Assembly: GCA_017412585.1 (NCBI GenBank) | Contig: JAFPXK010000004.1 | Coordinates: 1 to 58,229, forward strand | DNA: 58,229 nt | Direction: 5' to 3' | From: Oscillospiraceae bacterium | GTDB taxonomy: Bacteria; Bacillota; Clostridia; Oscillospirales; Oscillospiraceae | Shown: in pieces, positions 46,995-50,356 of the stretch | Numbering within the stretch: position 1 is the stretch's first letter | Layout: each line of letters starts with the position of its first letter | Program-made: the position numbers and the translations under genes | Notes under the pieces: model-generated | What the model saw: only the letters and a program-made list of their open reading frames with translations | Databases searched by the model: none | What the model was told of the DNA's origin: nothing

Positions 46995-47421
46995 AAACTA
47001 TGTGACACTGGAATTTTTGAGCCGAAGTAACAATGAGGGCTTCATGCGAGTGGCGGCGGCGGGGTTTGCCGCCCAGCTGGACCCCACGCTGGACGAGCTG
47101 GGGGACATCAAAACGGCGGTGAGCGAGGCGGTGACCAACGCCATCGTTCACGCTTACCCCGACAGGATCGGACGGATCCAGGTGAAAATGAAGCTGCTGG
47201 AGAGCAACACGCTGGAAATCGTGGTGCGTGACTGGGGCAGAGGCATCGACAATATCGAGCAGGCACGGCAGCCCCTGTTTACCACCGGGGGCGAGGAGCG
47301 CAGCGGCATGGGTTTCACCATTATGGAGAGCTTTATGGATACGCTGCGCATCAAATCCACGCCGGATAAGGGCACCACGGTGGTGATGCGTAAACGCATT
47401 TCCCGCCGCACAAAGCGATGA
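46981..47421 (+). CDS. spoIIAB: Anti-sigma F factor / serine kinase
   Basis: GHKL-fold protein kinase of 146 aa that holds sigma-F inactive and phosphorylates SpoIIAA. The N box EAVTNAIVHAYP, G1 VRDWGRGI and G2 RSGMGFTIMESFMD motifs of the ATP site are intact. It overlaps the genes on both sides. Confidence 0.96.
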   Translation: MQRIENYVTLEFLSRSNNEGFMRVAAAGFAAQLDPTLDELGDIKTAVSEAVTNAIVHAYPDRIGRIQVKMKLLESNTLEIVVRDWGRGIDNIEQARQPLFTTGGEERSGMGFTIMESFMDTLRIKSTPDKGTTVVMRKRISRRTKR

Positions 47422-48119
47422 GCGTCACGCTGTCGCTGCTGGAAAAAGCCCGCAGCGGTGACGAGGCAGCCTGCGGCACCATGCTGGAGGAGAACAGCGG
47501 ACTCATCTGGGCGGTGGTGCGGCGGTACAGTGGCTGCGGCGTGGAAACGGAGGACCTGTATCAGCTGGGATGCATTGGATTTATCAAGGCTGTGAAGGGA
47601 TTTGACCTTACATACGGAACGCAGTTTTCCACCTATGCCGTGCCTAAAATCGCGGGAGAGATACGGCGGTTTATCCGGGATGACGGGGCGGTGAAGGTGG
47701 GGCGCACCATGCGGGAGAAGGGCTATACCGTCTGGACGGCCCGGGAGCGGCTGACTACGCAGTTAGGGCGGGAGCCCACCGTGTCGGAGCTGGCGGAGGA
47801 GCTGGGCATGACGGCGGAGGAGATCGCGGCGGTAGAGCTGGCTAACGTGGCACCGGAGTCGCTGCAGCAGGAGACCGGGGATGGCTTGACGCTGGAGAGC
47901 AGCATCGGAACCGACGCGCCGGAGGACGCTCTGGTGGAAAAAATCGCGCTCCGGGAGGCCATTGCGGCACTGCCGGAGCGGGAAAAAACGGTGATTCTTC
48001 TTCGGTTTTTCAAGCACCTGACACAGCAGCAGGTGGCACGGGTGCTGGGTGTGTCCCAGGTGCAGGTGTCCCGGCTGGAGCGGCGGAGCCTGGCAACGCT
48101 GCGTCAGCTTTTGGCGTGA
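47418..48119 (+). CDS. sigF: Forespore RNA polymerase sigma-F factor
   Basis: First compartment-specific sporulation sigma factor, 233 aa. Region 2 (YQLGCIGFIKAVKGFDLTYG, FSTYAVPKIAGEIRRFIRDD), region 3 (GREPTVSELAEELGMTAEE) and region 4 with helix-turn-helix (LTQQQVARVLGVSQVQVSRL) are complete. The ATG overlaps the spoIIAB stop. The last 110 bp, coding for region 4.2 and the tail, overlap the 3' end of a gene on the opposite strand. Confidence 0.95.
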   Translation: MSVTLSLLEKARSGDEAACGTMLEENSGLIWAVVRRYSGCGVETEDLYQLGCIGFIKAVKGFDLTYGTQFSTYAVPKIAGEIRRFIRDDGAVKVGRTMREKGYTVWTARERLTTQLGREPTVSELAEELGMTAEEIAAVELANVAPESLQQETGDGLTLESSIGTDAPEDALVEKIALREAIAALPEREKTVILLRFFKHLTQQQVARVLGVSQVQVSRLERRSLATLRQLLA

Positions 48120-48873
48120 CGCCGTAGTCGGCAGGGAGAAACTCCGTCATGGTGCCGCGATAGCGCTTGGGGAGGAAGCTGTTCTGACAGCGGGGATTCT
48201 CCCGCTGGGCGATAGCCACGGTGTCAAAAAAGCGCTTCCAAAGGGTGCGGTACTGCACCTCCTGTTCGTCAGGGGGATTCAGCGTCAGGTTATCCACCGG
48301 CAGCAAACGGGAGCTGCCGCCGGAATAGACCAGAAGCTCCCGGTGGGTGCGGTCATAGATGAAAAAGGACTCGTTGGCGTAGCGGTCGCAGAAGTGGCGG
48401 CGCAGCAGGGGGAGGACACGGTTTTTCGGCTCGATCTCGCTGCCCAGCACGCCATCATAGTCGGAAAAGCGGATGAAGCCCCGCAGCTTTTCCAACTCGC
48501 CATTCAAGTGGCGGACGGCCTTGGCGATGGGGTAATAGGTCTCGTCGGCCCGGTTGCGGAGAAAGGTGGGGCCGTCATCATACAGCTTGCGGATGAAGGC
48601 GTACAGGTGTATTTCCTTGTCCTCCAAACAGGTGAGGAAGGCCCGGCGCAGCAGATCCGCCGCATTCTGGGACAGGCGCACGATGCTGCGGTAGACGCGG
48701 CGGGCGTGGGCAATGTTTGTGGGCACGTAGCGCACAGAATACAGCGACCAGCAATCCTCATCGCCGCAAAAGGCGATGGGGAATTCTTTATGCACATAGC
48801 TCTCATACACACAGCAGAGAAAGCCGTCGAAGGTTTCGTCGTACTGAAATACCACTTCCGGCCAGTTCATCAT
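48010..48873 (-). CDS. TIGR03915-type putative DNA repair protein, partner of radical SAM
   Basis: A protein of 287 aa. It opens with VVFQYDETFDGFLCCVYESY and contains RRAFLTCLEDKEIHLYAFIR, DRYANESFFIYDRTHRELLVY and the closing block SFLPKRYRGTMTEF, as in the TIGR03915 family. That family always accompanies the TIGR03916 radical SAM protein and is sometimes fused to a uracil-DNA glycosylase-like domain, which suggests DNA repair or modification; the activity is unproven and the glycosylase domain is absent here. Members normally end near TEF. This one adds about 42 residues rich in Pro and Ala (PAGTPAPGTHPAPVPPAAV), read antisense through the end of sigF; the extension is probably non-functional. 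Confidence 0.85.
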   Translation of the reverse strand: MMNWPEVVFQYDETFDGFLCCVYESYVHKEFPIAFCGDEDCWSLYSVRYVPTNIAHARRVYRSIVRLSQNAADLLRRAFLTCLEDKEIHLYAFIRKLYDDGPTFLRNRADETYYPIAKAVRHLNGELEKLRGFIRFSDYDGVLGSEIEPKNRVLPLLRRHFCDRYANESFFIYDRTHRELLVYSGGSSRLLPVDNLTLNPPDEQEVQYRTLWKRFFDTVAIAQRENPRCQNSFLPKRYRGTMTEFLPADYGVTPKADAALPGSAAPAGTPAPGTHPAPVPPAAVSGA

Positions 48874-48874
48874 A

Positions 48875-50146
48875 TCACCCCGTGGCATCAAATAAGGAAA
48901 GCTGCTCCATGGCGGCATGGGGCAGAAGGCCCCGCTCGATGGTTTCCAACTGGCGCACCATGGTGGCGGGGGAGAAGCGCAGGCCGTCGCGCATGCGGCC
49001 GGCGCAGGTGATGAAATATTGCGCCCGCTTGACCACCACACCCAGGCGGGACAGATCCTCCCAGCGGATGGTGCCTACACGGCGGGCGGCCAGGATGCGC
49101 TGAGCGCCGACCTGCCCGATACCCGGGACACGGAGAAGCTGCTCATAGTCGCAGGTCATGATCTCCACCGGGAAAAGCTCCAGATGGCGCACGGCCCAGT
49201 CGCATTTTGGGTCAAGATAGGGATTGAAATTGGGACGGCTGTCGTCCAGCAGCTCCCGGGCCTGAAAGCCGTAAAACCGCAGCAGCCAGTCGGCCTGGTA
49301 GAGCCGATGCTCCCGCAGCAGGGGCGGCTTGGTGTCCAGGGAGGGGAGGAGGGTATTCTCCACCACGGGAACGTAGGCGGAGTAAAACACCCGCTTGAGA
49401 CGGTAGGTTTGATAAAGGGACTCGGTGAGATGGAGGATATGGCGGTCGGTGTCGCCGGTGGCGCCTACAATGAGCTGAGTGCTCTGGCCTGCCGGCGAAA
49501 AAGCGGGAGCATGGCGATACTTTACCAACTCCCGTTTGTTCTCCCGCACGGTGTCCCGAATCTGGGCCATGGGACGAAAAATGGCGCTGCGGGATTTGTC
49601 CGGCGCCAACGTGCGAAGCCCCTGCTCGGAGGGCAGCTCAATATTGATGCTGAGGCGGTCCGCCAGCAGGCCCAGGGTGTTCACCAGCTCCGGCGCGGCG
49701 CCGGGGATGGCCTTGGCGTGGATATAGCCGTTAAAGCGATATTCCTCACGCAAAATCCGTAGGCAGGTGATCATCTGCTCGGTGGTATAGTCGGGATTGC
49801 GCAGTACGCCGGAGGACAGAAAAAGGCCTTCGATGTAGTTGCGGCGGTAGAACTGAATTGTCAGCTCCGCCAGCTCCCGGGGCGTAAAGGCGGCACGGCG
49901 GGTGTCGTTGGACCGGCGATTGACACAATACTTGCAGTCGTAGACACAGCTATTGGTCATCAGCACCTTCAGCAGGGTGATGCACCGTCCGTCGGCGGAA
50001 AAGCTGTGGCAGCATCCGGCGATGGAGGAGGACGTGTTGCCGATCTTCCCGGCCTGGTAACCACGACGCACGCCGCTGGAGGTGCAGGCGGCGTCATATT
50101 TGGCGGCGTCGGCCAGTATGGTCAGCTTTTCCAGCGTGTCCATCAT
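48875..50146 (-). CDS. TIGR03916-type putative DNA modification/repair radical SAM protein
   Basis: Radical SAM protein of 423 aa. The cluster cysteines are Cys67, Cys71 and Cys74 (NSCVYDCKYCVNRR); a second cysteine group lies earlier (CCHSF, GRC). The C-terminal part contains a helix-hairpin-helix DNA-binding motif (LLRVPGIGQVGAQRILAARR). The family is known only from context and is linked to uracil-DNA glycosylase-like domains; the chemistry is unknown. It starts 3 nt after the small upstream ORF and ends 1 nt before its TIGR03915 partner, so all three genes form one operon, here apparently driven by an SOS-controlled promoter. Confidence 0.9.
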   Translation of the reverse strand: MMDTLEKLTILADAAKYDAACTSSGVRRGYQAGKIGNTSSSIAGCCHSFSADGRCITLLKVLMTNSCVYDCKYCVNRRSNDTRRAAFTPRELAELTIQFYRRNYIEGLFLSSGVLRNPDYTTEQMITCLRILREEYRFNGYIHAKAIPGAAPELVNTLGLLADRLSINIELPSEQGLRTLAPDKSRSAIFRPMAQIRDTVRENKRELVKYRHAPAFSPAGQSTQLIVGATGDTDRHILHLTESLYQTYRLKRVFYSAYVPVVENTLLPSLDTKPPLLREHRLYQADWLLRFYGFQARELLDDSRPNFNPYLDPKCDWAVRHLELFPVEIMTCDYEQLLRVPGIGQVGAQRILAARRVGTIRWEDLSRLGVVVKRAQYFITCAGRMRDGLRFSPATMVRQLETIERGLLPHAAMEQLSLFDATG

Positions 50147-50149
50147 CCA

Positions 50150-50269
50150 TTACGCAGCGCGGCGGCGACGGCGGGGCTGCCCATGCTCCAGCTTGTCAAT
50201 CAGCCGCATAAACTCGATGGACAGGGAAGCGGCGCCGATAAAAATGAAGATCATACCGATAGTCGTCAT
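50150..50269 (-). CDS. 39-aa single-pass membrane protein, first gene of SOS-controlled operon
   Basis: I do not recognise this protein. The 39 codons from ATG 50269 to TAA 50150 begin MTTIGMIFIFIGAASLSIEF: one hydrophobic helix (about 3-20), then an amphipathic charged stretch (RLIDKLEHG) and a tail of five consecutive arginines. GGAGGG is 7 nt before the ATG (complement of 50277-50282), an excellent ribosome-binding site, and the ORF fills the space between the promoter and the radical SAM gene exactly. The topology would put the basic tail in the cytoplasm. Known SOS-induced small membrane proteins include division inhibitors (YneA, SidA) and the TisB toxin; any such role here is inference. 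Confidence 0.7.
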   Translation of the reverse strand: MTTIGMIFIFIGAASLSIEFMRLIDKLEHGQPRRRRRAA

Positions 50270-50304
50270 GATAAATCCCTCCGTAAAACATCTGTTCTAT
50301 TGGT

Positions 50305-50333
50305 ATTATAAGTCGAACATACGTTTCTGTCAA
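50305..50333 (-). promoter_or_regulatory. Consensus sigma-A promoter of the SOS operon
   Basis: Exact TTGACA (complement of 50328-50333) and exact TATAAT (complement of 50305-50310), 17-bp spacer, giving a leader of about 29 nt before the small ORF. A promoter this strong would need repression, which the SOS box in its spacer would provide. Confidence 0.92.
50314..50327. promoter_or_regulatory. LexA (DinR) SOS box
   Basis: CGAACATACGTTTC matches the Gram-positive SOS box CGAACRNRYGTTYC at every position. It lies entirely between the -35 and -10 of the minus-strand promoter, the usual place for LexA repression. Confidence 0.88.
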
Positions 50334-50341
50334 GCAAAAAT

Positions 50342-50356
50342 CGAACAAAATTTCGA
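50342..50356. promoter_or_regulatory. Possible second, degenerate SOS box upstream of pcrA
   Basis: CGAACAAAATTTCGA keeps the CGAAC half-site and an imperfect right half (T instead of G at the first base). It is 16 bp upstream of the pcrA -35 and 14 bp from the perfect box. Confidence 0.3.

Follow-up and report, generated by a model that had tools for sequence, protein, structure and literature searches.

Convergent operons that meet without a spacer raise the question of where each transcript ends. The case analyzed here lies in a 58,229-nucleotide stretch of an Oscillospiraceae genome (the window), where a predicted LexA-controlled repair operon, formed by a micropeptide gene, a TIGR03916 gene, and a TIGR03915 gene (chp), converges on the spoIIAA-spoIIAB-sigF operon with no spacer between them. 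A sequence-only reading of this region had reported that chp and sigF overlap in antisense, which is confirmed by the coordinates (Table 1) and by recurrence in relatives, and had proposed that damage-induced transcription might interfere with sigF and hold back sporulation. To judge from our comparative analysis, the overlap looks like packing that has evolved within set bounds, and not just like a run-on of damage transcription that delays sporulation. The two operons are probably ended by reciprocal intrinsic terminators written into codons, each lying inside the coding sequence of the other operon.

Table 1. Features of the convergent locus, in window positions.
Feature	Position	Strand	Remarks
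T1, predicted intrinsic terminator of the SOS operon	47938..47982	-	Stem-loop CCGCTCCGG...CCGGAGCG then TTTTTT; inside sigF
sigF, third gene of spoIIAA-spoIIAB-sigF	47418..48119	+	Hosts T1 on the opposite strand
Tail-to-tail protein-coding overlap	48010..48119	both	110 bp; recurs at 80-128 bp in relatives
Pro/Ala-rich C-terminal tail of chp	48013..48138	-	42 residues beyond the TIGR03915 core
chp, TIGR03915 / DUF4130 putative DNA-repair gene	48010..48873	-	Last SOS-operon gene; hosts T2 on the opposite strand
T2, predicted intrinsic terminator of the spoIIA-sigF operon	48755..48792	+	TCCTCATCGCC GCAAAA GGCGATGGGGA then ATTCTTTATG; inside chp
TIGR03916 radical-SAM putative DNA modification/repair gene	48875..50146	-	647.6 bits vs cut-off 343.5; same operon as chp
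Micropeptide gene, first in the SOS operon	50150..50269	-	39 codons; hydrophobic segment then basic Arg-rich tail
SOS-operon promoter	50305..50333	-	TTGACA-17-TATAAT; 12/12 consensus match
Three LexA-type boxes	50354-50343, 50326-50315, 50297-50286 (span 50286..50354)	-	Spacing 28-29 bp

The Overlapping Genes and Their Relatives

Read from its ATG (minus strand, 48873..48010), chp encodes 287 residues and matched NCBIfam TIGR03915 at full length in a profile search (195.8 bits, cut-off 112.25), as well as Pfam DUF4130, which has been described as a predicted enzyme related to mutagenesis and found in association with SplB-like radical-SAM enzymes and uracil DNA glycosylases (PMC3765255). The TIGR03915 and TIGR03916 genes are adjacent, and both score above their profile cut-offs. 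Both families of the pair described earlier (PMC3765255) are therefore matched here by profile search; what differs is that this pair is accompanied by three LexA-type boxes and a leading micropeptide, and is convergent with spoIIA. On the opposite strand, the sigF product finds its best profile matches in SigF/SigG models, and the gene order is spoIIAA/spoIIAB/sigF. With a score of 254.5 bits, below the TIGR02885 SigF equivalog cut-off of 321.45, and a clear spoIIA context, the window's sigF product looks like a divergent SigF.

In the 287-residue chp product, the TIGR03915 profile stops at residue 245, at GTMTEF, which leaves the last 42 residues outside the family core, most of them in the overlap. 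These residues had been taken for a read-through extension, a view borne out by the profile boundary and by the lack of visible selection on the tail, whose length and sequence vary among relatives. Synonymous sites of sigF vary as much within the overlap as outside it (median p 0.32 vs 0.31), and selection on the overlapping Pro/Ala tail was rejected because these sites are unconstrained and the tail length is variable.

The same-genus sample comprised 27 loci with both genes side by side, the window counted, and was drawn largely from uncultured, metagenome-derived assemblies. The comparison with relatives that the sequence-only reading had suggested upholds the overlap in 23 of these 27 gene pairs (80-113 bp), but, in partial accord with what that reading had named as its refutation, some relatives are separated: within the genus by 3 bp (L044), 5 bp (L052), 20 bp (L041, with an intergenic terminator of its own), and 169 bp (L057), and outside it by 621 bp (L078). 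In what follows, adjacent refers to the 26 genus pairs within 20 bp, L057 being classed as non-adjacent. Overlaps of 86-128 bp were also found at six loci outside the genus (L058, L059, L061, L062, L079, and L080). By this recurrence in the genus and at the six outside loci, the 110-bp overlap is real, old, and beyond chance. All overlaps, within the genus and outside, lie in one common relative frame, and relatives with a changed frame or stop no longer overlap. As a sign of selection the constant frame is unconvincing, since composition largely accounts for its being open.

A 28th genus locus (L043, in genome G008) carries chp without an adjoining sigF, and a sigF ortholog was searched for and not found in this 100% complete genome. 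The losses are reciprocal: G008 kept the SOS operon with sigF undetected, and G016 (L176) kept spoIIA-sigF with the SOS operon absent beside sigF.

Control of the SOS Operon

The LexA-type boxes of the repair operon are GAACNNNNGTTC-like, with the middle one between the -35 and -10 elements, and the position of this three-box operator is conserved across the genus. Three regularly spaced boxes around one promoter constitute a heavy operator for a repair operon. The same LexA-type motif is found 64-119 nt upstream of lexA in 29 of 30 genus genomes, against a background of 0.04 per 200 nt. Both lexA and recA are present in the genome; no LexA box with up to one mismatch was found at recA, so the evidence for SOS control rests on the operon boxes and the lexA motif. 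A genome scan with the strict LexA pattern returned two sites only, the pattern being too strict for defining a regulon. LexA-type (SOS) control of the operon is well supported by these predicted sites, and the earlier designation as an SOS operon is sustained by the same two lines of evidence.

Micropeptide open reading frames of 35-43 aa occupy the equivalent place in the genus loci with available promoter sequence and in several other genera. No Pfam match was found for the micropeptide, which is possibly an SOS-induced membrane micropeptide. The genome also contains Spo0A and separate SigE, SigG, SigK, and SigH-like genes, from which it follows that a sporulation gene set exists.

A Predicted SOS-Operon Terminator inside sigF

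Scanning the SOS strand beyond the chp stop revealed a strong hairpin followed by T6 within sigF in most genus members. In the window, this element (T1; minus strand, 47982..47938) is a GC-rich hairpin of -23.6 kcal/mol followed by the six-U tract, and its pairing begins about 28 nt past the chp stop. It is encoded by sigF codons 174-189, where GAA AAA AT yields the T tract and GCG CTC CGG pairs with CCG GAG CGC/CGG. Against a null in which synonymous codons were shuffled within each gene, hairpin energies in most adjacent genus members reach -20 to -36 kcal/mol, compared with shuffle means of about -9 to -16, and the joint hairpin-plus-T probability is at most 0.004 in most of them. When the entire sigF antisense was searched, the whole-gene null still gave p 0.001-0.002 for the window and seven relatives.

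Synonymous conservation is concentrated in the stem and T-tract codons (GAA 20/20, GCG 20/20, CTC 17/20; Mann-Whitney p 7e-5) and does not extend to the loop or the protein overlap. Covariation is weak, with mostly invariant positions, and a strand bias of G-U over A-C cells is absent. As a predicted terminator, T1 is carried mainly by the shuffle nulls, the constraint on its codons, and the natural losses, with covariation contributing less.

None of the adjacent genus members has less than 27 nt between stop codon and hairpin. With a reporter in E. coli, termination was less than 10% when the terminator lay 5 bp past the stop and about 90% when it lay 28 bp past it, the low efficiency near the stop arising because the terminating ribosome masks the hairpin (PMC4824070). 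By analogy, the 28-nt spacing of T1 fits a working terminator, short of proof. What follows the T1 hairpin on the sigF strand is GGGAAAAAAC, and a single bidirectional terminator shared by both operons was rejected because the U tract is missing on that strand.

Dependence of T1 on the Neighboring Operon

When T1 was scored as present at an energy of -17 kcal/mol or lower with a T run of at least 4, it occurred in 21 of 26 adjacent genus loci and in none of 40 sigF genes that had no chp within 20 bp. The contrast is strong (Fisher p 7e-13) by a statistic that ignores shared ancestry, and it is partly confounded with phylogeny, independent losses being few. The best contrast lies inside the genus: in G016, where the SOS operon is absent beside sigF, the T1 site stands at the shuffle mean, while its sister G010 (L052; support 99/90) retains a strong T1; the predicted hairpin has decayed in G016.

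Other departures from the common arrangement are informative. T1 is absent from L057, with its 169-bp gap. L041, with a 20-bp gap, has a weakened T1 and a perfect intergenic inverted-repeat terminator (ACAGAACCCTCTG...CAGAGGGTTCTGT TTTATTC), which is a replacement for T1. In L035, a Lys codon stands in place of a stem-forming Arg codon and T1 is gone; another antisense hairpin-T site lies inside its sigF (p 0.007). The exceptions are L039/L040 and L056, adjacent loci without a convincing T1, of which L056 keeps the T6. Outside the genus, the adjacent loci L058, L061, L062, L079, and L080 have no T1, and L059 has a hairpin without a T tract. On the presence rule applied here, T1 tracks the presence of the SOS-operon neighbor.

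A Predicted spoIIA-sigF Terminator inside chp

No sigF terminator was found close behind the sigF stop in the window. A scan of the sigF strand showed that a hairpin recurs about 665-680 nt past this stop, inside chp. In the window, this element (T2) is a GC-rich hairpin at 48755..48782 on the plus strand (-20.4 kcal/mol) directly followed by the moderately U-rich tail ATTCTTTATG; at the level of the site, the hairpin alone gives p 0.083 and the joint test p 0.007.

Among 24 distinct sequences, 97% of the pair cells are paired and nine cells carry compensatory double changes, and none of 500 shuffles reached the observed paired fraction, double changes, or covariation score. Non-Watson-Crick cells on the sigF strand number 34 G-U versus 2 A-C; one near-constant pair accounts for 22 of the 34, and the remaining 12 still exceed A-C. 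Since G-U lies far above A-C on the sigF strand, the T2 signal is strand-specific. At T2, the chp codons show some of the strongest synonymous constraint in the whole gene (p 1e-6). Adjacent loci, with L058, L079, and L080 from outside the genus among them, gave p 0.003-0.013 under whole-gene nulls, and T2 is conserved across several genera where chp and sigF abut. The case for T2 as a predicted terminator is founded on covariation and constraint.

G008, without detectable sigF, still has the T2 hairpin, likely as a relic. A terminator-like hairpin near the T2 position was also seen in L069 (p 0.023) and, weakly, in L060 (p 0.073), where sigF does not adjoin chp.

Proposed Mechanism

The window's genome and the 31 congeners searched yielded no credible Rho. 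Weak partial matches in congeners look like ATP-synthase-type ATPases by score and coverage, and one genome of another family has a true Rho match. Rho-dependent termination is unsupported, as a true Rho was not found in the genome itself or in its congeners. With no spacer and no Rho found, each operon needs an intrinsic terminator, apparently inside the opposite gene. The sequence-only reading had stated that no terminator fits between the genes, which is true in the window; the conclusion drawn from it was incomplete, because terminator-like elements lie inside each gene. Both predicted elements are present, exceed the synonymous-shuffle nulls, and are conserved or covarying, and T1 follows its neighbor.

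RNA polymerase leaving the SOS operon would pass the chp stop and continue for 28 nt, so that the terminating ribosome clears the hairpin, and would then stop after the GC-rich hairpin and six U that form the antisense of sigF codons EKIALR...LPERE. Polymerase leaving sigF would cross most of chp in antisense and stop at the hairpin and U-rich tail formed by the antisense of chp codons HKEFPIAFCGDED. The SOS mRNA is predicted to end near 47938, over the last ~182 nt of sigF, and the spoIIA-sigF mRNA near 48790, over ~90% of chp; the two would share a stretch of ~850 nt. Overlapping mRNAs, which the sequence-only reading had deduced, are indeed expected from the gene overlap and the predicted positions of T1 and T2. 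Selection would hold the required synonymous codons in both genes, and the two elements, by terminating transcription, would mainly bound its antisense extension.

Alternative Explanations

That damage-induced transcription runs antisense through sigF and delays sporulation is quite unlikely. Such a course would agree with the LexA-type promoter, the lexA motif, the overlap of the genes, and the presence of spore sigma factors and Spo0A, and S. aureus lexA provides a known instance of a stress gene under the control of antisense read-through (PMC8745188). However, a strong conserved predicted terminator, 28 nt past the chp stop, should halt the SOS RNA ~180 nt into sigF, which leaves free entry into sigF unsupported; moreover, the arrangement is lost in L041, L057, and G016, and G008 has the SOS operon without detectable sigF. 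If antagonism exists, the anatomy would favor the reverse, with the longer antisense laid on the repair gene by the sporulation transcript. Transcription of spoIIA-sigF at sporulation would then cover ~90% of chp and silence the repair gene in an excludon-like manner, by polymerase collision or by RNase III cleavage of the ~850-nt duplex. This reverse or mutual antagonism is possible though doubtful, and would be an added consequence of the codon-encoded terminators rather than an exclusive alternative to them. It draws on the location of T2 far inside chp, conserved across several genera where the genes abut, and on the accepted status of convergent mRNAs overlapping at their 3' ends as an excludon layout (PMC7154746). 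That location may, however, merely reflect where a terminator could be encoded, and since chp is last in its operon, the radical-SAM gene and the micropeptide would escape. A further elaboration would make the codon-encoded terminators a reciprocal switch, tuned through their positions, that sets which operon's RNA silences the other and so chooses between DNA repair and sporulation. This appears unlikely; if true, silent codons of a sporulation sigma factor and of a repair gene would encode part of a cell-fate decision.

Neutral packing would make the overlap a by-product of deletion and the hairpins a coincidence of conserved protein motifs and GC-rich codon usage. In its favor, codons for LR and for PE complement each other by nature, shuffles of the sigma-factor motif already average near -9 to -16 kcal/mol, composition leaves antisense frames open, and the tail is unconstrained. 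This null is nevertheless exceeded in the tests of synonymous shuffling, codon conservation, and covariation, and the 40 sigF genes without the neighbor lack the hairpin and T run in combination, making such an origin very improbable. Hardly credible is the proposal that the hairpins are not antisense terminators but work in the sense mRNAs, by pausing translation, by causing frameshifts, or by affecting mRNA stability. The T1 stem does form in sigF mRNA too, where an A6 run precedes it, but the ~2 nt between this run and the stem leave too little room for programmed frameshifting. Furthermore, T1 is gone where the convergent neighbor is gone, and the G-U pairs of T2 on the sigF strand would turn into A-C on the strand of chp. 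The spacing of the A6 run in sigF and the dependence on the neighbor led to the rejection of programmed frameshifting there.

Relation to Known Systems

In the textbook excludon, the transcript end lies far downstream, is diffuse, or comes from read-through. The reciprocal codon-encoded terminators proposed here share with excludons the convergent operons, mRNAs predicted to overlap in antisense, and no terminator separating the genes (PMC7154746), as also described for convergent-gene transcripts in Rickettsia (PMC3027695); they differ in that two specific codon-encoded predicted terminators would bound the overlap. The E. coli mscL-arfA pair is likewise arranged tail to tail, with a 3' UTR over the other gene's 3' coding sequence, stem-loops in the stretch that the two share, and conservation across a bacterial group, but its arfA stem-loop is an RNase III site that yields an antisense RNA against mscL (PMC10070815), whereas at the present locus each strand has a separate terminator-type hairpin of its own, located within the opposite gene. 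Convergent neighbors, stress regulation, and a terminator whose quality sets the entry of antisense RNA into an SOS gene are also features of S. aureus sbrB/lexA (PMC8745188); there, sbrB's own terminator leaks into lexA, while here the predicted terminators lie inside the opposite coding sequences. As with bidirectional intrinsic terminators, intrinsic termination would serve two convergent genes, but T1 and T2 are separate elements ~800 bp apart, and T6 follows T1 on the SOS strand only.

The literature searched, whose coverage was partial, yielded no precedent for two convergent genes with reciprocal terminators encoded in their codons. The locus offers a clean comparative case in which one gene's synonymous codons appear to be held by selection as the predicted terminator of its convergent neighbor, in both directions, with natural loss experiments in G016, without the SOS operon, and G008, without detectable sigF. 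It also carries a warning that an absent terminator between convergent genes does not imply run-on antisense transcription, and it specifically predicts two RNA 3' ends in those Oscillospiraceae where no Rho was found.

Apart from the T1 codons, sigF contains a second genus-specific block of synonymous conservation, which no terminator explains, at codons 58-65 (47589-47612), reading GCT GTA AAG GGA TTT GAC nnn ACA.
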